Shown: positions 15,187 to 60,170 of the stretch, one piece after another
How positions within the stretch are numbered: position 1 is the first letter of the stretch
Layout of the letters: each line of letters starts with the position of its first letter
Source: Ruminococcus flavefaciens
Lineage (GTDB): Bacteria > Bacillota > Clostridia > Oscillospirales > Ruminococcaceae
Length of the DNA stretch: 64,000 nucleotides
Assembly: GCA_902760805.1 (NCBI GenBank)
Contig: CACWHY010000010.1
Location: 1 to 64,000, forward strand
Direction: 5' to 3'
Notes under the pieces: model-generated
The model's input: the letters and a program-made list of their open reading frames with translations, nothing else
Database searches by the model: none
What the model was told of the DNA's origin: nothing
Position numbers and translations under genes: made by a program

Positions 15187-18100
15187 ATGAAAAAAAGACG
15201 TTTTCTCTCCGGCTTGACCGCTCTTAGCGTTACGGCCGGAATGCTCAGCGTTATGCCGGCTATCACGTCGCAGACATACGCTGCTGAGATCGTTAAGAAC
15301 GACTTCGAGGCTTCCTACGACGGTTGGTTCTCTGACGGCGCTGAGATCTTAGCTGCTGACGGCGAAGGCTTCGGCGGCTCAAGAGCTATGACGCTCATCA
15401 ACAGAGATTCCGCAGATGACAGCGCTTCTTCCGCTAAGGGCTTCTACCTCTGGGGCGGAGTTGAATACGACTACAGCGTGAAGGTATCCGCTGAAACAGC
15501 CGAGCACTTCACCCTGTCTCTCACCTACGCCATTGACAACGACGGCACCGAGGAAGAGACTACGGTCATCCTGGACGATCAGTATGTTCCCGCAGGACAG
15601 TGGGGTACTCTGGGCGGCAAATTCAAGGCTCCTAAGAACGCCTATGAGTTCAAGATCAGCATCAAAACTGATTCAACTAATGATTTCGCATTCGACGACC
15701 TGCTGGTAACTGCTGACAAGGAAAAGCACACCGCAAATGCTGCTCCTGCCGGCAAGGGCCTCAAGGACGAGTTCGCAAACTACTTCCTCTGCGGAAACAT
15801 CCTCAACACAAACACTGTAGAGCAGTCCGCTATCACTGCTAACATCCTCAAGGACTGCAACGTTATCGAGTGTGAGAACGAGACAAAGCCCGATGCTACT
15901 ATCGTTCAGAACGGCTCCACCAACACAAATGTCAAGGTGCAGTTCGGCAAGGGCGCTGCTGCTATCCTGGACTTCTGTTCAAGGAACAACATCGGCTTCA
16001 GAGGCCATACAATGGTTTGGCACAGCCAGACACCCCCCTGGTTCTTCAGAGAGAACTTCAACAGCAACGGCAATTTCGTAAGCACTTCTGTAATGGATCA
16101 GCGTATGGAGAGCTACATCCACAATATGTTCGACCTCTACGCTAACCAGTATCCTTCAGTAAACCTTGTAGCATACGATGTCTGCAACGAGGTAATTTTC
16201 GACGGCACAGCCAGAAACGGCGGTGTAAGACCCACATCAGGCGACGGCCACTCTGACTGGGTAAATGTTTACGGCAACAACAGCTTCGTCGAGAAGGCCT
16301 TCACCTACGCAAGAAGGTACGCTCCCGATACCTGTAAGCTGTTCTACAACGACTACAACGAGTTCGCCTACGATAAGCAGAACTGCATCATCGACACTAT
16401 CATCAAGCCCCTCCACGATAAAGGACTTCTGGACGGTATGGGAATGCAGTCACACCTGGACTGCTCTGCTTCCAACGCATGGGGCGACACAAATTCCTAT
16501 CTGGCAGCAATGGATAAGTACCTGGCTCTGGGTATCGATGTTCAGGTAACTGAGCTGGATCTTTCAAGAGACGGCGGAAAATTCTCCGACGACCAGCAGG
16601 CAGCCAAGTACAAGGCTATCTTCCAGCACTGCGTAGATGTGAACTCCAGCGGAAAATTCCCCGGAAAGGTTACCCTCGTTCAGGTATGGGGACCCAATGA
16701 TAACAACTCATGGGTAGGCAAGGACAGAAACGGCAACCCCAACTATCCCCTCCTCTATGATGGAAACAATCAGCCTAAGTCGGCTTACAATGCTATCACC
16801 TCTATCATCCCCGATGATCAGTGGGGCGACGGATCCAATCCCTCACTGGAAGTCAAGCAAATCGAGCCCGATGAGAACGGCTACTACTTCACACATTCCT
16901 TCGAGGGCACAGACCACGGCTGGGAGCCCAGAGGCGGCACTTCCCTCATGACAAGCGGCAGAACTGCTCTCGACGGCAAGGAGGCTCTCCTGGTTTCCGA
17001 GAGAACAGGTTCTTGGAACGGTGCTGCTTACGCTATCAGCCCTAATCCCTTCACTCCAGGCGAGGAGTTCAGCTTCTCCGCAAATGCTATGGCATTCGAC
17101 GGCGCTGACACAACTGATTTCAAGTTCACTCTTGAGTATACAGGTTCCGACGGCGAGCCTCACTACAGCGAGATCGCACACGGTACTGCTCCTAAGGGCG
17201 AGTGGGTACAGCTGGCTAACACCAACTACAAGATCCCTGAGGACGCTAAGAACATGAAGATCTACGTTGAGACATCTGACGACTCAACAGAGAACTTCTA
17301 CATCGATCAGGTCTCCGCTGCTGTTGCCGGCACAGATATCCCCGGCGCAGGACAGCCCAAGATCAGAACTATGATCCCCGGCGACATCGACGGCGATGAG
17401 AGAGTTACTGTATTCGACGTTATCGCAGGCCGTGACGGTCTGATCAACGGCTTCTCAGACAACATCGCTGCTAAGGCTGCTGACGCAGACCAGAGCGGCA
17501 AGTATCAGATCAACGACCTGGTACTCATCCAGGAGTTCGTTCTCCGCAAGATCACTGAGTTCCCCATTGCTGAGCCCGAGTATCCCGTTATCGACGAGCC
17601 CGCTATGAAGTCACTCTTCAGCGGCATCACTCCCGCATCAAGCTGGAAGAAGGACGGCGAGAACAACCCCATGACTACTCAGCGTTTCGGCGCTGATCCC
17701 GGCTGGATGGTTTACGACGGAAGACTTTACATCTACACAACTGACGACCAGTATGAGTATTACAACGACGGAAGACTGAAGATCAACACATACAACTCCG
17801 GAACTATCAACTGCGTTTCTACAGCAGATATGGTAAACTGGACAGACCACGGCGCACTTCCTATCGCCGGCGGAAACGGCAGAACTAAGAACGGCTGCGC
17901 TAAGTGGGCATACGCTGCATGGGCACCCGATGCCTGCTGGAAGATGATCAACGGCAAGCCTAAGTTCTTCCTCTACTTCGCAAACAGCGCAGGCGGTATC
18001 GGCGTTGTTACAGCCGACAGCCCCACAGGTCCCTGGTCCGATCCTCTGGGCCACGCACTCCTCACAGGACAGTCACCCAACTGCTCAGACGTTGAGTGGA

Positions 18101-19086
18101 TGTTCGACCCCGGCGTTTACTACGATGAGACCTCTGACGAAGCATACCTCTTCTTCGGCGGCGGCAGAAAGAGCAACATCCCTGCTGATTCTCCCGGAAC
18201 AGGAAGAGTCGTTAAGCTGGGCAAGGATATGACTTCACTGGCAGGCAACCCCGTTAAGATGGATATCCCCTACCTCTTCGAGGATTCCAGCGTTATCAAG
18301 ATCGGCGACACATGGTACTACTCCTACTGCTCCAACTGGAACGTTCCCGGCGGTACCAATATCAACGGCGTTAGCTTCGGAAATGCAGACATCCTCTACA
18401 TGACCTCCAAGGATCCCCTCTCATGGAGCAAGAACAACCTTGCAGGCAACGTTTTCAAGAACACAGGATCACAGAGAATAGATGCTGGCGGTAACAACCA
18501 CCACTCTATCATATATTTCAAGGACAAATACTACGTTGCATACCACTCACGTCAGCAGGCTATGCGTGAGTTCAGTGAGAAAGGCCTTGTAGCTTACACT
18601 CTCAACAACGACGGCTCTGTTAAGGAAACAAATAAGAGCGACGGTAACTACCGTTCAACTCAGATCAATGAGTGCTCATTCTCAAACGGAAAGCTCAGCT
18701 GCTCCGGCGATATGAAGGGCTGCTCACAGATCGAGGCTCTCGATCCCTTTACAAAGGTACAGGCTGAGACAATGTCCAATCAGTCCAAGGGCGTTGAGGT
18801 AAACGGCCTCTATGACACAACAGTTACCGGTAAGAAGGGCGACTGGATCAAGGTATCCGGTGCTGACCTGAAGGACGGTATCAAGGCTATCACAGTCAAG
18901 GGCTCCGGCGGCGCAGTTAAGTTCTGCACAGGCTCTCCCACAGGAACAGTTCTGGGTTACGCTGACCTGGGCAGCTCCGGACAGGAAGTGACCTTCGCAG
19001 CAACAGGCTCCGCATCTGGAAGCAAGGACATCTACATCGTATTCGGAAGCGACAACATCTCACTTGACTACTGGCAGTTCTCATGA
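15187..19086 (+). CDS. Secreted cellulosomal xylanase: CBM-GH10-CBM-dockerin-GH43-CBM6
   Basis: The 1,299-residue enzyme starts with a signal peptide (MKKRRFLSGLTALSVTAGML...). A CBM22/CBM4-9-type module follows (about 32-180), then a GH10 catalytic domain (about 195-545) with acid/base E335 in YDVCNEVIFD and nucleophile E456 in VQVTELDL. A second similar CBM (about 560-715), an internal dockerin (about 732-795, loops DIDGDERVTVFD and DADQSGKYQIND), a GH43 domain (about 806-1150, starting FGADPGWMVYDGRLYIY) and a C-terminal CBM6 (about 1175-1299) complete it. GH10 cuts the xylan backbone; GH43 probably removes arabinose or trims xylo-oligosaccharides. The dockerin would plug it into a cellulosome scaffold. 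The gene is monocistronic with its own promoter and terminator. A dockerin in the middle of two catalytic modules is known from Ruminococcus cellulosomes. Confidence 0.93.
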   Translation: MKKRRFLSGLTALSVTAGMLSVMPAITSQTYAAEIVKNDFEASYDGWFSDGAEILAADGEGFGGSRAMTLINRDSADDSASSAKGFYLWGGVEYDYSVKVSAETAEHFTLSLTYAIDNDGTEEETTVILDDQYVPAGQWGTLGGKFKAPKNAYEFKISIKTDSTNDFAFDDLLVTADKEKHTANAAPAGKGLKDEFANYFLCGNILNTNTVEQSAITANILKDCNVIECENETKPDATIVQNGSTNTNVKVQFGKGAAAILDFCSRNNIGFRGHTMVWHSQTPPWFFRENFNSNGNFVSTSVMDQRMESYIHNMFDLYANQYPSVNLVAYDVCNEVIFDGTARNGGVRPTSGDGHSDWVNVYGNNSFVEKAFTYARRYAPDTCKLFYNDYNEFAYDKQNCIIDTIIKPLHDKGLLDGMGMQSHLDCSASNAWGDTNSYLAAMDKYLALGIDVQVTELDLSRDGGKFSDDQQAAKYKAIFQHCVDVNSSGKFPGKVTLVQVWGPNDNNSWVGKDRNGNPNYPLLYDGNNQPKSAYNAITSIIPDDQWGDGSNPSLEVKQIEPDENGYYFTHSFEGTDHGWEPRGGTSLMTSGRTALDGKEALLVSERTGSWNGAAYAISPNPFTPGEEFSFSANAMAFDGADTTDFKFTLEYTGSDGEPHYSEIAHGTAPKGEWVQLANTNYKIPEDAKNMKIYVETSDDSTENFYIDQVSAAVAGTDIPGAGQPKIRTMIPGDIDGDERVTVFDVIAGRDGLINGFSDNIAAKAADADQSGKYQINDLVLIQEFVLRKITEFPIAEPEYPVIDEPAMKSLFSGITPASSWKKDGENNPMTTQRFGADPGWMVYDGRLYIYTTDDQYEYYNDGRLKINTYNSGTINCVSTADMVNWTDHGALPIAGGNGRTKNGCAKWAYAAWAPDACWKMINGKPKFFLYFANSAGGIGVVTADSPTGPWSDPLGHALLTGQSPNCSDVEWMFDPGVYYDETSDEAYLFFGGGRKSNIPADSPGTGRVVKLGKDMTSLAGNPVKMDIPYLFEDSSVIKIGDTWYYSYCSNWNVPGGTNINGVSFGNADILYMTSKDPLSWSKNNLAGNVFKNTGSQRIDAGGNNHHSIIYFKDKYYVAYHSRQQAMREFSEKGLVAYTLNNDGSVKETNKSDGNYRSTQINECSFSNGKLSCSGDMKGCSQIEALDPFTKVQAETMSNQSKGVEVNGLYDTTVTGKKGDWIKVSGADLKDGIKAITVKGSGGAVKFCTGSPTGTVLGYADLGSSGQEVTFAATGSASGSKDIYIVFGSDNISLDYWQFS

Positions 19087-19175
19087 TCTAATGCAATCAT
19101 CTGCGGTCTCTTTTCTGCACATTTAGGGGCCGCAGACGATATAAAGAAATTTGTTGTAAGGGACAAATCAGAAAA

Positions 19176-19207
19176 CCGCTCTGGCGAAAGTCAGAGCGGT
19201 CATTCTT
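19176..19207. terminator. Terminators between convergent xylanase and esterase genes
   Basis: CCGCTCTG (19176-19183) pairs with CAGAGCGG (19192-19199) around an 8-base loop, followed by TCATTCTTT. A second stem, TCTGCGG (19100-19106) with CCGCAGA (19130-19136), lies nearer the xylanase stop. Confidence 0.7.
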
Positions 19208-19234
19208 TGTCCTGATATTTTGCAAAGGCCTATG

Positions 19235-54665: not shown

Positions 54666-54917
54666 ATGACAAAGTTAGTATCTATCATCACCACCGCAGC
54701 TATCGCAGGCACAATGGCTATTGCAGGAGCAATGAGCTCCTTTGCAGCTGAGGAAGCAGCCGGAGCCGAGATCCAGCAGTCCATTCAGGAAGCCCAGACT
54801 GAAAGTTCGGAGAGCAGCTCTCCCAAGACCGGCGTTGCAGCACCTTCACTGCCTGCTGCCGGTATCGTCCTGGCTTTCGCAGCAGTCGTACTCACCCTCA
54901 AGAGAAAGAAGAACTGA
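54666..54917 (+). CDS. Small secreted protein with SPKTG tail
   Basis: The 83-residue protein has a signal peptide (MTKLVSIITTAAIAGTMAIAGAMSSFA), a short acidic Gln/Ser/Glu-rich middle of about 25 residues, and a C-terminal SPKTG, hydrophobic helix and basic end (LTLKRKKN). The tail matches those of the proteins at 34839 and 33332. It is so short that the mature product would be a peptide anchored at the surface, perhaps a sortase-linked peptide or a precursor. ATG 54666 follows AAAGGAGAAAAAAAT. Confidence 0.7.
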   Translation: MTKLVSIITTAAIAGTMAIAGAMSSFAAEEAAGAEIQQSIQEAQTESSESSSPKTGVAAPSLPAAGIVLAFAAVVLTLKRKKN

Positions 54918-54967: not shown

Positions 54968-55031
54968 GGGGCAAAATGCAATGTAATTGGGGCAAAATGT
55001 CATTCCATTTCCGGCTGATGTCGGCTATAAT
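54968..55031 (+). promoter_or_regulatory. GH26 promoter with two GGGGCAAAATG sites
   Basis: TTCCAT (55003-55008), a 17-base spacer and TATAAT (55026-55031) form a promoter with a poor -35. Two copies of GGGGCAAAATG lie upstream at 54968-54978 and 54989-54999, 21 bases apart (two helical turns); the second ends three bases before the -35. This is the arrangement expected for an activator such as an AraC-type protein. Confidence 0.8.
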
Positions 55032-55076
55032 TTGAGTAAAGTCAGACGGAAAAATATACTGACAGGAGGAATTGGA

Positions 55077-57551
55077 ATGAAAAAGATCATATCAGCAGCT
55101 CTTGCTGCTATCACCATGTGCGCTGCTCTTCCCGGGCTGCCTGCATCGGCTGCGGGCGTGACCTATGAGTTTGAAAGCGGCTCGATCTACGACACAGGCG
55201 AGAACGAAACTGCCGTTGTGTCTCTGACAGGAGCAAGCGGCGGAAAGGCCGTCGACCTTCGTGATGCCGGAGACTCAGTCACCCTCAAGGTGAAAGCCGA
55301 AAGCGCAGGCTTGCAGAAGCTGACTATCCGCTACTGTCAGCCCTACGATGAGGGCGGAAAGTACCAGGACGTACTGGTAAACGGTGAGAACGTGGGACAG
55401 ATCTTATGCGGCTATACCGGCGACGGAAATTTCGCATCGGTGAGCATTTCCGCAAGCCTGAGAGCCGGAGAGAATACCGTTGCAGTTCAGGGCTCATGGG
55501 GCTGGACCTACCTTGACAGCCTTACCGTGGAGGCCGCAGAGAGCTTCTCATCGGACATAAGCGGAGCTCTCTCAAACCCCAATGCTACGGCAGAAACCAA
55601 GTCTCTCTACAGCTATCTCTGCGACACCTACGGCAGCTACATCATCTCCGGACAGCAGGAGTCCACTTGGATGGGCAGTGAGAACTATGAGTTCGACATC
55701 ATCAAGAGAGCAAGCGGAAAATACCCGGCTCTCAGAGGCCTTGACTACATGGGCGATGACTTCTCCGGCTGTAACCGCAGGGCAAAGTCCTGGTATCAGC
55801 AGGGCGGCATCGTTACGATCTGCTGGCACTGCGGAAGCAATTTCTCCGGCAGCCATACCGAGGCTATGAACTCCGACCTGAACTGGAGCGCTGCTCTCAC
55901 CGAGGGAACTGCGGAGTACAACACCCTCATCGCCGGCATGGACAAGGGCGCTAAGGCTCTGAAGGAATTGCAGGATGCCGGTGTGCCCGTTATCTGGAGA
56001 CCCTTCCACGAATTCGACGGAAAGTGGTTCTGGTGGGGCAAGGGCGGTGCCGAGAATTTCAAGAAGCTCTGGCAGATCATGTACGACCGCTACACGAACT
56101 ATTGGGGACTGAACAACCTTATCTGGAATTTGGGCTACAGCGGCACAGTAACTGACGGCTGGTACCCCGGCGACGAATACGTTGACATCATAGGCGCCGA
56201 CACCTACGTTGACCACACCAATTCCCTGGTGGGGATCTACGCAAAGACAGCTCAGGTGGCTGACAAGCCGGTCTGCCTCCACGAGAACGGCCCTATCCCG
56301 GATCCTGACAAGGTGAAGGCTGACGGTGCGAAGTGGCTGTGGTTCATGACCTGGCACACCTCATTCATTGACAGCGACCCGATAAATACTGCCGACTATC
56401 TGAAAAAGGTCTACAACAGCGACTATATGCTGACCCTTGACGAGCTGCCTGACGTTTACCACTATCAGTCCGACGACCCCAAGCCCACTGAGCCCCCTGT
56501 AAGCGTTAAGGGCGATGTGAACGGCGACGGCCAGTTCAATATCGCAGACGCTGTCCTTCTGCAAAAATGGCTGCTGGCTGCTCCCGATGCACAGCTTGCT
56601 GACTGGCAGGCCGGCGACCTTACGGAGGACGGAAAGCTGAGTCTCTTCGACCTGATCTCCATGAAGGAAATGCTCGCCCAGCCTCAGACTCCTCCCGAGG
56701 AGCCCAAGCAGAGCTACTCCTACGATCCGGCCAAGAAGTACACCGAGTACGACTGGAGCTACAAGAACGAGGCCTCTCAGAAGGGCACTATCGTCAAGGA
56801 GAGCTACAACGGCATAAACGGCATGAATTCCCTGAACGTATACCTGCCCTACGGCTACGACAGCAGCAAGAAGTACAACATCTTCTACTTCATGCATGGC
56901 ATGGGCGACAGCGAGAATTCCCTGTTCTACAACGACAACGGCGAGTCTCAGCGGCTGCTGGACAACATGATCGCAAAGGGCGACATCGAGCCTATGATCA
57001 TCGTTACTCCCACATTCAACAAGGTCAGCAGCGATACCTTCTACAATGCCGAGAACTTCTACAAGGAGTTCCGTGAAAGCGTTGTTCCCTTCGTTGAGGG
57101 CAAGTATTCCACCTATGCAGCCTCCACCTCTGCCGCTGACATCAAGGCCTCAAGAATGCACCGTGCATACGGCGGCTTCTCCATGGGAAGCGTTTCCACA
57201 TGGGCAGTTTTCGAGAACTGCGTGGACATCGTCGGCTACTTCATGCCAATGAGCGGCGCTCATCACTGGGGAACAGGCACCGCTGATGCAGGCGCTCTGG
57301 CAAGGGCTGTCACAAACGCCGGACTTTCCAAGGATCAGGTGTTCATCATGTCAGCTACCGGCACATCGGACTTCGCCTATCCCGTCCTTGGACCTCAGAT
57401 CGAGGACATGAAGAAGCAGAGCGTTTTCGAGTACACCTCTGACTTCTCCAAGGGCAACCTGTGGTTCATCCTGGCAGACGGCGGCGAGCACAGCTGGTAC
57501 TATGTAAGACAGTACATCTACAACTGCCTGCCATTCTTCTTCCACCAGTAA
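55077..57551 (+). CDS. Secreted cellulosomal CBM35-GH26-dockerin-CE1 enzyme
   Basis: The 824-residue enzyme has a signal peptide (MKKIISAALAAITMCAALPGLPASA) and a CBM35-like module (about 28-150: YEFESGSIYDTG...). A GH26 catalytic domain follows (about 160-455) with acid/base E312 in WRPFHEFDGKWFWW and nucleophile E403 in CLHENGPIPDP. A dockerin (about 478-540, loop DVNGDGQFNIAD) and a C-terminal CE1 esterase (about 560-824) with nucleophile S702 in GGFSMGS complete it. GH26 cleaves beta-1,4-mannan (some members cleave xylan-related glucans), and CE1 would remove acetyl or feruloyl groups, so the protein attacks decorated mannan from both sides. ATG 55077 follows ACAGGAGGAATTGGA. It is preceded by an activator-type promoter and followed by the gene for its likely regulator. 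Confidence 0.93.
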   Translation: MKKIISAALAAITMCAALPGLPASAAGVTYEFESGSIYDTGENETAVVSLTGASGGKAVDLRDAGDSVTLKVKAESAGLQKLTIRYCQPYDEGGKYQDVLVNGENVGQILCGYTGDGNFASVSISASLRAGENTVAVQGSWGWTYLDSLTVEAAESFSSDISGALSNPNATAETKSLYSYLCDTYGSYIISGQQESTWMGSENYEFDIIKRASGKYPALRGLDYMGDDFSGCNRRAKSWYQQGGIVTICWHCGSNFSGSHTEAMNSDLNWSAALTEGTAEYNTLIAGMDKGAKALKELQDAGVPVIWRPFHEFDGKWFWWGKGGAENFKKLWQIMYDRYTNYWGLNNLIWNLGYSGTVTDGWYPGDEYVDIIGADTYVDHTNSLVGIYAKTAQVADKPVCLHENGPIPDPDKVKADGAKWLWFMTWHTSFIDSDPINTADYLKKVYNSDYMLTLDELPDVYHYQSDDPKPTEPPVSVKGDVNGDGQFNIADAVLLQKWLLAAPDAQLADWQAGDLTEDGKLSLFDLISMKEMLAQPQTPPEEPKQSYSYDPAKKYTEYDWSYKNEASQKGTIVKESYNGINGMNSLNVYLPYGYDSSKKYNIFYFMHGMGDSENSLFYNDNGESQRLLDNMIAKGDIEPMIIVTPTFNKVSSDTFYNAENFYKEFRESVVPFVEGKYSTYAASTSAADIKASRMHRAYGGFSMGSVSTWAVFENCVDIVGYFMPMSGAHHWGTGTADAGALARAVTNAGLSKDQVFIMSATGTSDFAYPVLGPQIEDMKKQSVFEYTSDFSKGNLWFILADGGEHSWYYVRQYIYNCLPFFFHQ

Positions 57552-57586
57552 TTCCCTATATCACTCCACACTCAGATAATAGCCAT

Positions 57587-57612
57587 AGCTCCGCAGATCG
57601 TGCGGAGCTTTT
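57587..57612 (+). terminator. Intrinsic terminator after the GH26 gene
   Basis: AGCTCCGCA (57587-57595) and TGCGGAGCT (57601-57609) form a perfect 9-bp stem followed by TTTT. Confidence 0.8.
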
Positions 57613-57618
57613 GGCGTA

Positions 57619-57647
57619 TTGACGAAAGCTGCATGGTGCTGTATAAT
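57619..57647 (+). promoter_or_regulatory. Promoter of the AraC-type regulator
   Basis: TTGACG (57619-57624), a 17-base spacer and TATAAT (57642-57647). No GGGGCAAAATG site is seen here, so the regulator appears not to control itself through that motif. Confidence 0.8.
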
Positions 57648-57668
57648 AAAACAAAAAGGGGTGACATT

Positions 57669-59882
57669 ATGGAAAGCAAGGGCAGGATCGGGCTCATCGT
57701 CCCGCATATACTTTACAATCCGGACGTAGCTCTGGTGGACGTTATCCACCGTCAGGCCATGCAGTACGGCTACGACACGGTGGTGCTCACCGGAGTCATA
57801 AACTACGTTGACGAAATGCTGGAGGACACCTACGCCAAGGGTCAGACCAACCTCTATGACCTTATAAGCTGCGGAAAATTCGACGGCTTCATCTTCGAGG
57901 CAGGCATTTTTTGCAGCGAGCGTCAGCGGAAACGCATCATCGAGCTTCTGGGGAAGCAGTCTGCGCCGGCGGTGGTGATCGGCTACGAGCAGGACAGCTT
58001 CCCAAATATCACGGCGGAGGAGAGCTCGCTCCTCTACCAGACCACCAAGCATTTAGTGCAGCTCCACGGCTGCCGGAGGATCTTCTGCATAGGCGGCTAC
58101 AAGGGCCACCCTCAGTCCGAGGAGAGGATCCAGGGCTTCCGCAAAGCTATGGAGGAGGCAGGTCTTGCCTACTCAGAGGAGGACATCATCTACGGAGACT
58201 ACTGGCGGACAGTTCCCCATCAGGTGGCGCTCGACATTGCGAATGGCCGCCTTGAAAAGCCGGACGGCATAGTCTGCGGCAGCGACATCATGGCTGTGGA
58301 GCTGTGCCGTACCCTCATGGCGAACGGTATCCGTGTGCCTGAGGACATCTGCGTTACAGGCTGTGACGGAAACATGGTCTCTCAGACAGAGGCGGTCACG
58401 ATCACAACTGTCTCCTCTCAGGAGAGCCGCCTGGGAATGGCTGCCGCAAGAAGGCTGCTGTCCCTTATGGGCGAGGAGGTGCCCGATGAGGAGCTCTCTC
58501 CGGCGCTTGTCATCGGCGAGAGCTGCGGCTGTGCTGAGCTGGGAAGGATCGTCCGCAGCCGGGAGCTCTCCGACATCAGATCCTACGCCGGCAGCCTTCT
58601 GGAAAAGCTGGAGGCTCGCCGCACCAGCAGCACCGGCGAGATCCTTCGGCGAATGAGCGAGGCCTCCACTCTTGACGACGTTATGGGGACCGTAATCGGC
58701 TGCTGCTACATGATCCCAAATAACCTCCGGGGGGAGGTATGCCTTTGCAGCGACTGGTGCAAGGACCTGGATCACCCCTCAGTCTACCGGCGGGGAGGCT
58801 TCTCCGAGAAGATGATCCTGGGAACTGAAGTGTGGGAGGGCGGCTTTTTCAACAAGCACATCGAATTTCCTGTTGGGGAGCTCCTGCCCTCTCTCAGCGA
58901 AAAGCACTCTCCCCGGCTGATCGTGCTTTCGTCCCTGCACTATAAGGGACAGATCTTCGGCTACATCTCCCTGACCTACCCAAAGGCCGCCGACATTCTC
59001 ATGGACGAGTATTTCATGCAGTGGTGCGATGCGGTGAGCAGCGGCCTCAACACTGTCCAGAACAAGCTGTACAAGGCCTACGTCAACGCCCGGATCGAGG
59101 CTCTGTCGGAATTCGCCCCGGTGCTTGGTATCTACAACCGTCGAGGCCTGATCAGCCGGCTGACTGGACTTCTCTCAGACAGCAGCGATACCGTCTACGG
59201 ACTGTGCCTTCTGACCTATCTCAAGCAGGAGCGCCAACACGACACAGTTCCCCCGATCAACGCCATAGTCCACGCAATGCGGCTTTCAGAAAAGGATCTG
59301 CTGCTGGCCAGCTTGGACGAGGGGACCATCGCATTCCTTGCGCCGGAGAAGGAGCTTTCCGGCTCGCCCCAGGCTCTCTCTGCGCAGATAGCAAAGCAGG
59401 TAGGCCAGGTCTACCGCACGGCTCTGAACATAAAGGAGGAGCAGATCGTTATCGTCCGCTCCACAGTGACATACGAGAATATTTTCAGCATCGAGGAGCT
59501 CCTCCGCAGCATGGAGTCCGAGCTCAAGGGCAAGGCCCTCTCCCTCAGATCCGGCGCATTCAGCTATCAGGAGCGGCTCCAGGCCCTCCGTGAGACGATC
59601 TTCCGTGAGCCTCAGCGTGACTGGAGCATGGACGAGATCACCCGCTCGCTGGGCGTCAGCAAGAGCCATTTCCAGAGGATCTACAAGGAGCTCTTCGGCA
59701 CCACCTGCAAGGAGGACATCATCCAGAGCAGGCTCAGCCGGGCAAAATGGCTGCTGGAGAACACCCAGCTGCTGATCGCTGATGTGGCGGAGCAGTGCGG
59801 CTACAGCAACACCAGCCATTTCGTAAGACAATTCACCGCCAGGATCGGCGAGCCGCCCTCAGCCTACCGAAAGCAAAAATGA
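57669..59882 (+). CDS. Regulator with LacI-type ligand domain and AraC-type DNA-binding domain
   Basis: The 737-residue cytoplasmic protein has an N-terminal LacI/periplasmic-binding-like ligand domain (about 8-275: RIGLIVPHILYNPDVALVDVIHRQAMQYG...ITTVSSQESRLGMAAARRLLSLMGEEVPDE) without its own N-terminal helix-turn-helix. A middle region (about 290-625) includes a degenerate GGDEF-like segment (LGIYNRRGLISRLTGLL, without the GGDEF loop). A C-terminal AraC/XylS DNA-binding domain (about 640-737) has two helix-turn-helix units: MDEITRSLGVSKSHFQRIYKELFG and IADVAEQCGYSNTSHFVRQFTARIG. The ligand is presumably a sugar, and its neighbours suggest a mannan oligosaccharide. It has its own promoter and lies between two promoters that share GGGGCAAAATG, so activation of the GH26 gene and the RNA at 59951 is the natural hypothesis. 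Confidence 0.88.
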   Translation: MESKGRIGLIVPHILYNPDVALVDVIHRQAMQYGYDTVVLTGVINYVDEMLEDTYAKGQTNLYDLISCGKFDGFIFEAGIFCSERQRKRIIELLGKQSAPAVVIGYEQDSFPNITAEESSLLYQTTKHLVQLHGCRRIFCIGGYKGHPQSEERIQGFRKAMEEAGLAYSEEDIIYGDYWRTVPHQVALDIANGRLEKPDGIVCGSDIMAVELCRTLMANGIRVPEDICVTGCDGNMVSQTEAVTITTVSSQESRLGMAAARRLLSLMGEEVPDEELSPALVIGESCGCAELGRIVRSRELSDIRSYAGSLLEKLEARRTSSTGEILRRMSEASTLDDVMGTVIGCCYMIPNNLRGEVCLCSDWCKDLDHPSVYRRGGFSEKMILGTEVWEGGFFNKHIEFPVGELLPSLSEKHSPRLIVLSSLHYKGQIFGYISLTYPKAADILMDEYFMQWCDAVSSGLNTVQNKLYKAYVNARIEALSEFAPVLGIYNRRGLISRLTGLLSDSSDTVYGLCLLTYLKQERQHDTVPPINAIVHAMRLSEKDLLLASLDEGTIAFLAPEKELSGSPQALSAQIAKQVGQVYRTALNIKEEQIVIVRSTVTYENIFSIEELLRSMESELKGKALSLRSGAFSYQERLQALRETIFREPQRDWSMDEITRSLGVSKSHFQRIYKELFGTTCKEDIIQSRLSRAKWLLENTQLLIADVAEQCGYSNTSHFVRQFTARIGEPPSAYRKQK

Positions 59883-59901
59883 TCTAAAAGTGCATTGATT
59901 T

Positions 59902-59944
59902 GGGGCAAAATGTAATTGCTACTCTGACTGGGATAGTTTATAAT
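59902..59944 (+). promoter_or_regulatory. ncRNA promoter with GGGGCAAAATG activator site
   Basis: TTGCTA (59916-59921), a 17-base spacer and TATAAT (59939-59944). GGGGCAAAATG at 59902-59912 ends three bases before the -35, the same geometry as at the GH26 promoter. Confidence 0.75.
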
Positions 59945-59950
59945 TGTATT

Positions 59951-60170
59951 AAAGGAAAGCACCCGTCGTGAGGATCTTCACAGGATAGCTCGCAAAGGCA
60001 TAAAGGCTTCATCACTCCTGAACACCAGCCCGAAACGACCGACAGCTTCATTCCTTTCAGATCGAAGCACATATCACGGCATCTGCACAATAGCCGTGAA
60101 AATGTGGTTTATAAAAGCCTAAGGGGGCAGATCAGATACCGCACTCACAAGAAGTGCGGTATCTTTTTTT
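59951..60170 (+). ncRNA. Putative structured small RNA with terminator
   Basis: A promoter with start near 59951 and a strong terminator (AGATACCGCACT 60134-60145 with AGTGCGGTATCT 60153-60164, then T run) define a transcript of about 215 bases with no credible protein gene. Inside, AAAGGAA (59951-59957) can pair with TTCCTTT (60051-60057). A long hairpin forms from CACAT/TCACGGC (60068-60080) and GCCGTGA/ATGTG (60093-60106). It does not match a riboswitch, 6S, SRP or tmRNA pattern I know, and the gene after it is convergent, so it is not a leader. It may be a regulatory RNA under control of the regulator encoded just upstream. Confidence 0.55.

Follow-up and report, generated by a model that had tools for sequence, protein, structure and literature searches.

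The GH26 locus of Ruminococcus flavefaciens

Ruminococcus is a central degrader of plant fibre in rumen and gut. We analysed 64,000 nucleotides of Ruminococcus flavefaciens DNA (assembly GCA_902760805.1, contig CACWHY010000010.1, positions 1 to 64,000 of the forward strand), hereafter the window, which is contig C10 of a draft genome (2.73 Mb, 44 contigs, 96.5% complete). The element under study is a locus in which a GH26 enzyme gene is followed by the gene of a XylR-like regulator and then by an RNA region closing in a terminator. Judged from its sequence, the locus appears to place a plant-fibre enzyme and a small RNA (sRNA) under the positive control of a single sugar-sensing regulator. The components of the locus are as follows.

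55077..57551, plus strand: GH26 enzyme with CBM35, dockerin and esterase domains, 824 aa (Pfam)
57669..59882, plus strand: XylR-like regulator, 737 aa (Pfam and PDB sequence matches)
59950..60170, plus strand: small RNA, ends predicted; fold z -4.35, with none of 200 shuffles as stable

An earlier note on this DNA had described the regulator as carrying an AraC-type DNA-binding domain. The domain is present, as Pfam detects an AraC-type helix-turn-helix (HTH) pair at the C-terminus (HTH_18, E 2.3e-20; HTH_AraC with two stretches). The protein is nevertheless not a plain AraC protein, because a LacI-type sugar sensor is fused to this domain (Peripla_BP_3 in the N-terminal part, E 5.5e-26). Sequence matches in the PDB comprised LacI-family sensors on the N-terminal part and XylR (4fe4, 4fe7) at the HTH, with an E value of 2e-11. 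By its domain composition, the regulator is XylR-like. XylR of Escherichia coli likewise joins a sugar sensor of LacI type to an HTH of AraC type, and the tandem half-sites next to the -35 element, described below, may be a further likeness. The window regulator differs from E. coli XylR in being much longer, with a middle stretch that has no Pfam match. Its N-terminal half matches other LacI-family sensors, XylR being matched at the HTH only, and its candidate targets at the locus are a dockerin-bearing enzyme and an RNA.

A tandem operator at the two promoters

Both the GH26 gene and the RNA are preceded by a candidate promoter with two half-sites upstream of the -35 element:

54968..54978, plus strand: GH26 promoter, distal half-site GGGGCAAAATG, exact match, 21 bp from the proximal copy
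54989..54999, plus strand: GH26 promoter, proximal half-site GGGGCAAAATG, exact match
55003..55008, plus strand: GH26 promoter, weak -35 TTCCAT, read from the sequence
55026..55031, plus strand: GH26 promoter, -10 TATAAT, read from the sequence and matched by pattern
59881..59891, plus strand: RNA promoter, distal half-site GATCTAAAAGT, degenerate, overlapping the regulator stop codon
59902..59912, plus strand: RNA promoter, proximal half-site GGGGCAAAATG, exact match
59916..59921, plus strand: RNA promoter, weak -35 TTGCTA, read from the sequence
59939..59944, plus strand: RNA promoter, -10 TATAAT, read from the sequence and matched by pattern

The three copies of GGGGCAAAATG reported previously (54968, 54989 and 59902) are the only exact ones in the window. 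Allowing at most one mismatch gives five places; shuffled windows contained 1.0 on average, and none of 100 shuffles reached five. The promoter geometry was also as described: in both cases three bases separate the proximal copy from a poor -35, and a spacing of 17 bp leads to TATAAT, so that the -10 begins exactly 37 bp after the start of the proximal half-site. The single site assigned to the RNA promoter in the earlier note has to be revised, as the degenerate half-site GATCTAAAAGT lies 21 bp upstream of it. On a matrix trained on 32 half-sites from the GH26 promoters of 16 relatives, this distal half-site even scores higher than the proximal one (9.1 versus 7.3). A scan of both window strands with the matrix, in which a distal partner was required as well as TATNAT at +37, left only the GH26 and RNA promoters with both half-sites. 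Tandem half-sites adjoining the -35 are typical of AraC-type activators. Because of the position of the operator and the weak -35 elements, activation is more plausible than repression.

A genome-wide motif search, proposed in the earlier note, located TTGGGGCAAAATG three times as an exact match in the own genome, each time at this locus; with up to two mismatches it occurs at 59 places, compared with 23 for the reversed control. Outside the locus, the bare 11-mer occurs once more, as CAGGGGCAAAATG at C29:9046. The complete architecture, that is, half-sites 21 bp apart plus TATNAT, is matched exactly twice in the own genome, at the GH26 and the RNA promoter (nine places versus three in the reversed control if two mismatches are permitted). 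Across 125 genomes of the genus, we obtained 31 exact matches in 25 genomes and three for the reversed control. By position, 16 of them are GH26 promoters of this locus, and five are RNA promoters beside a match of the RNA model introduced below (G000, G110, G044, G024, G119). Among the other ten, at least two precede further GH26 genes (G035:C311, which is L240, and G092:C139, which is L257).

Two further sites in the own genome resemble the operator. At C2:51940-52003 on the minus strand (L084), a tandem of AGCACAAAA with 21 bp spacing and TATAAT at +37 precedes a pectinesterase gene. This promoter has the same architecture with two mismatches to the pattern and is perhaps read by a paralogous regulator. 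At C2:83144 (L083), a single GGAACAAAATG site is followed by TATAAT at +37; judged by eye only, the gene behind it resembles a transporter component, and a second, uncharacterised open reading frame (ORF) comes next.

Conservation of operator, regulator and gene order

Orthologs of the regulator with 53-59% identity were found in 18 other genomes of the genus, and a GH26 match adjoins every one of them (68-74% identity; 81% for the partial locus L050). The GH26 gene lies upstream of the regulator gene in 17 of these 18 relatives, of which L075 and L050 are partial, and is convergent with it in L080. Counting the window, the 5' end of GH26 is intact at 17 loci, and in all 17 promoters the motif core lies at -37 and -58 relative to the first base of the -10, which was assigned by hand for L073. 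The matrix trained on GH26 promoters was then applied across to the RNA promoters, whose -10 elements had been chosen without help of the motif. The best matrix hit upstream of the syntenic RNAs had TATNAT at exactly +37 in 14 of 18 cases, any other offset occurring at most twice, and one of the two best hits did so in 18 of 18.

The comparative data support the earlier prediction of a local regulon made up of one enzyme gene and an RNA: sites and gene order recur with regulators of 53-59% identity, and the own genome has no third exact promoter. It can nevertheless be larger, since in L074 and L077 the same motif stands at a second CBM35 gene behind the RNA.

As an absence control, we collected 78 GH26 loci from named genomes and evaluated the 44 that contain the 5' end of the gene (query start at or before residue 9), setting the remaining 34 aside. 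Regulators were counted as orthologs at 50% identity or more, a cut-off of our own choice; the next lower values were 40% and less. The operator was present at 20 of 20 GH26 genes adjoining an ortholog, many of these loci being from genomes already in the synteny set of 18 relatives. Where no regulator was in view or only a relative of at most 40% identity, it was present at four of 24 (L221, L240, L257, L259); L240 ends 12 nt past the GH26 match, which leaves the regulator there out of view. These proportions, 20/20 versus 4/24, tie the operator to this regulator.

The same data bear on two other explanations of the motif. The operator could be read by another regulator, a paralog, instead of the product of the gene between the promoters. 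Paralogous XylR-like regulators do occur in the genome, the pectinesterase gene has its similar tandem, and there are the four operators without a visible ortholog, one of them at a contig end (L240). Yet in the own genome the exact architecture is seen only beside this regulator, and it is the co-occurrence in the absence control that leads us to weigh the paralog lower; we give it a slim chance. Alternatively, the shared motif could be a coincidence or an UP-like promoter element, as its A-rich halves upstream of the -35 might suggest. Neither would account for an architecture that the genome matches exactly twice, the 31 genus-wide matches as compared with three in the control, the offsets of 37 and 58 fixed in all 17 GH26 promoters, or the dependence of the operator on the presence of the regulator. 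The probability of this explanation is practically negligible.

The RNA at the locus

The predicted RNA is composed of a 5' domain, a hairpin, a conserved strand and a terminator:

59951-59968/60040-60057, plus strand: stem of the 5' domain, an imperfect stem of 18 nt (78%)
60068..60106, plus strand: CUGCAC hairpin with a 12-nt loop at 60081-60092, AUCUGCACAAUA (fold, alignment and covariation)
60123..60136, plus strand: conserved strand GGGGGCAGAUCAGA (alignment)
60134..60170, plus strand: intrinsic terminator with T run, inverted repeat 60134-60145/60153-60164

The 5' domain was not seen in the RNAs of the relatives. The sequence AUUCCUUU lies 3' of the CUGCAC hairpin in 12 of 17 relatives and 5' of it in the window (counted by eye). 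In L066 and L076, long insertions that fold into extended hairpins interrupt the RNA gene. RNA with a promoter follows 18 of the 19 orthologs of at least 53% identity, window included, L078 being the exception. These RNAs contain CUGCAC and an element like GGACARAUC, and most of them have a terminator.

A known RNA such as 6S RNA was rejected, as the window had no Rfam 15 match at the gathering cut-off; with E values up to 5, four matches were obtained around the RNA, all far below their cut-offs. Among 11 loci of relatives, Rfam returned T-box and tRNA matches only. We also considered a small protein and rejected it: within their first 200 nt, the 18 syntenic RNAs have a longest ATG, GTG or TTG frame of between 6 and 39 codons, and no shared peptide was seen by eye.

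A structured RNA family of the genus

Searches with models of the RNA place it in a larger family. The family core comprises a hairpin, whose 12-nt loop has two bases before CUGCAC and four after it, and then a spacer, the strand GGACARAUCAGA and a terminator. Model R1 was built from the RNAs of eight relatives, without either of the two copies in the window; it finds the core of the window RNA with 37.2 bits (E 3.8e-6 in the own genome). Model R2 was built from 24 aligned copies. Both window copies are among its training rows, so their R2 scores are high by construction. At E values up to 0.001, R2 matched 108 of 125 genomes of the genus, with one to seven matches per matched genome; 85 of the 102 genomes that contributed no training row still have a match. 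The own genome contains four copies and a weak fifth one (C22, 25.6 bits), which lies behind a dockerin-like end and lacks GGACARAUC.

The second copy in the window is located behind another enzyme gene:

15187..19086, plus strand: host gene of the second copy, with GH10, two CBM4_9 stretches and GH43, and CBM6 below the cut-off (Pfam)
19095..19207, plus strand: second RNA copy, R1 34.7 bits, R2 68.1 bits (in the R2 training set)

It begins nine positions past the end of the gene, and the fold of 19087-19210 has a z-score of -7.82. The RNA that the earlier note had treated as belonging to one locus is thus present beside the regulator as described, and it is at the same time a member of a genus-wide family.

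The hairpin is supported by covariation. Pairing holds for 92.5% of the 292 cells of the aligned set, with 90 double changes, compared with 30-45% for slid structures; the alignment (A6) was fitted to the R1 structure. A count anchored on CUGCAC tests the hairpin without such fitting, and pairing peaked at a loop of 12 nt, at 66% for the syntenic set (18 RNAs) and 75% for the model-found set (33 RNAs). The next value for the syntenic set, 64%, corresponds to the same register shifted by one pair. Distinct hairpin arms occurred in 12/18 and 24/33 RNAs, and all four inner pairs form in 4/18 and 18/33, respectively. RNAalifold returned no structure for a plain MAFFT alignment of 15 RNAs; in its place, the analysis relies on the alignment guided by structure and on the counts anchored at the loop. 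When the RNA was compared directly as DNA with 100 genomes of the genus, only two short matches were obtained besides the RNA itself. Thus, sequence alone misses the family.

Beyond the genus, we searched 297 genomes at the family level and obtained matches with E values up to 0.01 in 15. Five of these belong to the genus (own genome included), and the other ten are marginal (26.6-31.8 bits); the two that were inspected (L129, L130) lack CUGCAC. Convincing copies appear to be confined to the genus in this sample. The family is not in Rfam, and neither a description of it nor of any Ruminococcus sRNA was among the matches listed in the open literature. A set of 3161 candidate structured RNAs from human microbiomes, as far as presented in the consulted part of that study (PMC8040213), could hold the family unnamed, and an earlier unnamed prediction within it is possible. 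A regulator that controls an enzyme and an sRNA is a known kind of system, as are multicopy sRNA families; this family and its double placement represent a novel form of such systems.

Placement of the RNA copies

We surveyed 39 loci taken from the best matches and located the core in 34. In 18 of these 34, a stop codon on the same strand lies at most 60 nt upstream of the loop (L119 was read separately). These copies thus lie in 3' untranslated regions (UTRs), between the stop codon and the terminator of an mRNA. All 18 close upstream genes encode enzyme, CBM, dockerin, serpin or leucine-rich repeat (LRR) domains according to Pfam. Eight hosts have GH43 and/or CBM6 and four are serpins; a GDSL-dockerin protein, a GH26-CBM35 protein, a rhamnogalacturonan lyase, a CBM6-dockerin protein and a BspA-type LRR protein occur once each, and the remaining host has CBM6 and a dockerin-like end that Pfam does not match. 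To judge from their domains, the host proteins are presumably secreted. The serpin hosts are L101, L114, L140 and L144, of which L101 and L114 also show a dockerin match. Seven of the 34 located copies follow an orthologous regulator.

Stand-alone copies also occur beside more distant regulators. At the paralog loci L102 and L112, the regulators are 33-35% identical and the RNA is convergent with the regulator gene. The RNA promoters there have GGCTCAAAATG/TGTGCAAAACA (L102) and GAATCAAAATG/GGTGCAAAATA (L112) at -58/-37. In L111 and L150 (G085, G088), the RNA is flanked by genes for an FkbM methyltransferase and an aquaporin-like protein (by eye), and its promoter resembles the tandem site. 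Some of the remaining copies are unclassified. The copy on contig C1 of the own genome has a second XylR-like regulator (Peripla_BP_3 and HTH_18) upstream (L159, 6725-12375), the gene of which is oriented divergently to one encoding CBM4_9, dockerin and esterase domains.

The placement raises the question whether the element acts in cis only, as a 3'-end stabiliser or processing signal for abundant enzyme and regulator mRNAs, with no target in trans. The 18 copies in 3' UTRs speak for such a role, and the possibility that the shared elements act in cis counts against the trans model. A precedent is the cip-cel operon of Clostridium cellulolyticum, where, according to the part of the study considered here (PMC4423207), 3' stem-loops set transcript abundance. 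That system resembles ours in having RNA structures at the 3' ends of cellulosome genes; as portrayed there, its stem-loops are processing sites within one operon, whereas the present family is an element of conserved sequence found at unlinked genes and as stand-alone RNAs. Moreover, the CUGCAC loop and the GGACARAUCAGA strand are conserved as sequence while the stems are not, and a plain stabiliser needs no such conservation. The L102 and L112 copies, finally, have their own operator-type promoter and are convergent with the regulator gene, not downstream of it. We therefore regard a purely cis-acting element as unlikely, though it deserves serious consideration.

Searches for RNA targets and Hfq

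The genome encodes Hfq (106.9 bits). Pairing of the RNA with gene leaders was evaluated with RNAduplex, a crude test that ignores intramolecular structure. For the GH26 leaders, the mean z-score over 15 loci was -0.66, no better than for shuffled sequences, with three of the 15 reaching -2 or lower; for the regulator leaders, it was -0.04 over 15 loci. The complement of the conserved strand, TCTGATYTGTCC, occurs in the own genome at 44 places with at most one mismatch, compared with six for the reversed control, and few of them are family copies. Of the four exact sites, two are family copies, C11:96066 has no hairpin, and C37:10500 carries the strand without an adjoining CUGCAC hairpin. No complementary target site was identified in the own genome by this search.

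The outcome would suit RNAs that act as CsrB-like decoys, the induced stand-alone copy titrating a shared RNA-binding protein off enzyme mRNAs. No antisense target emerged from the leader-pairing and complement searches, and stand-alone RNAs and enzyme 3' UTRs have identical motifs. CsrB-type decoys carry many sites, though, while each RNA of this family has one, and no candidate protein was identified. A decoy function is in our opinion distinctly improbable.

A model for the locus

We favour trans-acting sRNAs above cis stabilisers and decoys, and a multicopy sRNA family that tunes the expression of fibre enzymes is the favoured interpretation of the RNAs. The proposed chain of events starts with a polysaccharide fragment, which would bind the sensor and, to go by the GH26 enzyme, may be derived from mannan. 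The regulator would then occupy two half-sites GRNNYRAAA, 21 bp apart, directly upstream of the weak -35, and thereby activate the two promoters that flank its gene, so that GH26 enzyme and RNA rise together. Some members of the family would be made from their own promoter beside such regulators, and others would arise as the 3' end of host mRNAs. Upon sensing of the given polysaccharide, the RNAs would adjust in trans other fibre-degradation genes or competing genes. Because the loop and the strand are shared with the 3' ends of unlinked enzyme mRNAs, these conserved parts probably contact the same partner, which is probably a target mRNA, Hfq or another protein. For the model as a whole, in which the XylR-like regulator binds the tandem operator and activates the GH26 gene and the sRNA, and the family members are Hfq-type sRNAs acting in trans, we estimate a probability of about 60%. 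A wider version, in which family members in the 3' ends of unlinked fibre-enzyme mRNAs and members made separately under sugar-responsive XylR-like regulators form a genus-wide RNA network on the cellulosome that relays the sensing of one polysaccharide to the expression of the other fibre enzymes, seems conceivable if on balance doubtful.

Several results weigh against the model, namely the poor pairing with both sets of leaders and the missing complementary site reported above, the C1 copy, whose promoter beside the second XylR-like regulator has no clear tandem site, and the uneven occurrence of the RNA. Of 24 orthologs with at least 50% identity, 18 have a visible RNA next to them and six do not, so the earlier picture of regulator and RNA side by side does not extend to every ortholog. 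The six are L078 and five more distant orthologs (50-55% identity; L243, L247, L248, L261, L262), which gave no R2 match in the fetched stretch. L248 and L262 are from R. albus, and in four of the five the regulator is divergent from GH26. The absence of an R2 match is an imperfect criterion, since two RNAs recognised through synteny (L224, L228) likewise escape the model. R2 was run on 43 of the 78 GH26 loci and matched 16; the 27 unmatched loci include L224 and L228. The 16 matched loci add no new evidence, because all of them lie in genomes already counted.

A point of comparison for the favoured model is the FopS sRNAs of Bacteroides thetaiotaomicron, characterised in the consulted sections of PMC11697453 as 14 copies with a single-stranded 5' stretch that contains the seed, followed by a terminator. 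Both are multicopy families, FopS being tied to polysaccharide use, with intergenic and 3' UTR-derived members and with a conserved motif common to the members in addition to the terminator (PMC11697453, same sections). In contrast to this seed-then-terminator layout, the core of the present family is the CUGCAC hairpin plus terminator, and instead of 14 copies there are one to seven matches per genome, many at enzyme 3' ends and some under XylR-type operators. Measured against what those sections describe, we claim no sequence relation between the two families.

For a XylR-like regulator, the locus supplies an operator that is defined precisely enough to be tested. It also leads to a structured RNA family outside Rfam, which occurs in 108 of 125 genomes of the genus and is linked to genes of carbohydrate-active and cellulosomal proteins. 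Should the RNA act in trans, it would coordinate fibre enzymes of Gram-positive gut bacteria at a post-transcriptional level, much as FopS may be compared in Bacteroides.

Further observations at the locus

Four of the loci with more distant orthologs (L248, L262, L243, L261; 50-51% identity, regulator divergent) have the tandem operator at GH26 and no RNA model match nearby. Relatives of the GH26 enzyme were found in R. flavefaciens FD-1, ND2009, SAb67, XPD3002 and YRD2003, in R. albus and in many metagenome-assembled genomes (MAGs); the better matches among the MAGs are mostly labelled Ruminococcus or Oscillospiraceae. Directly upstream of the GH26 promoter, an ORF of 83 aa (54666-54917) matches an LPXTG-type anchor at the Pfam cut-off.

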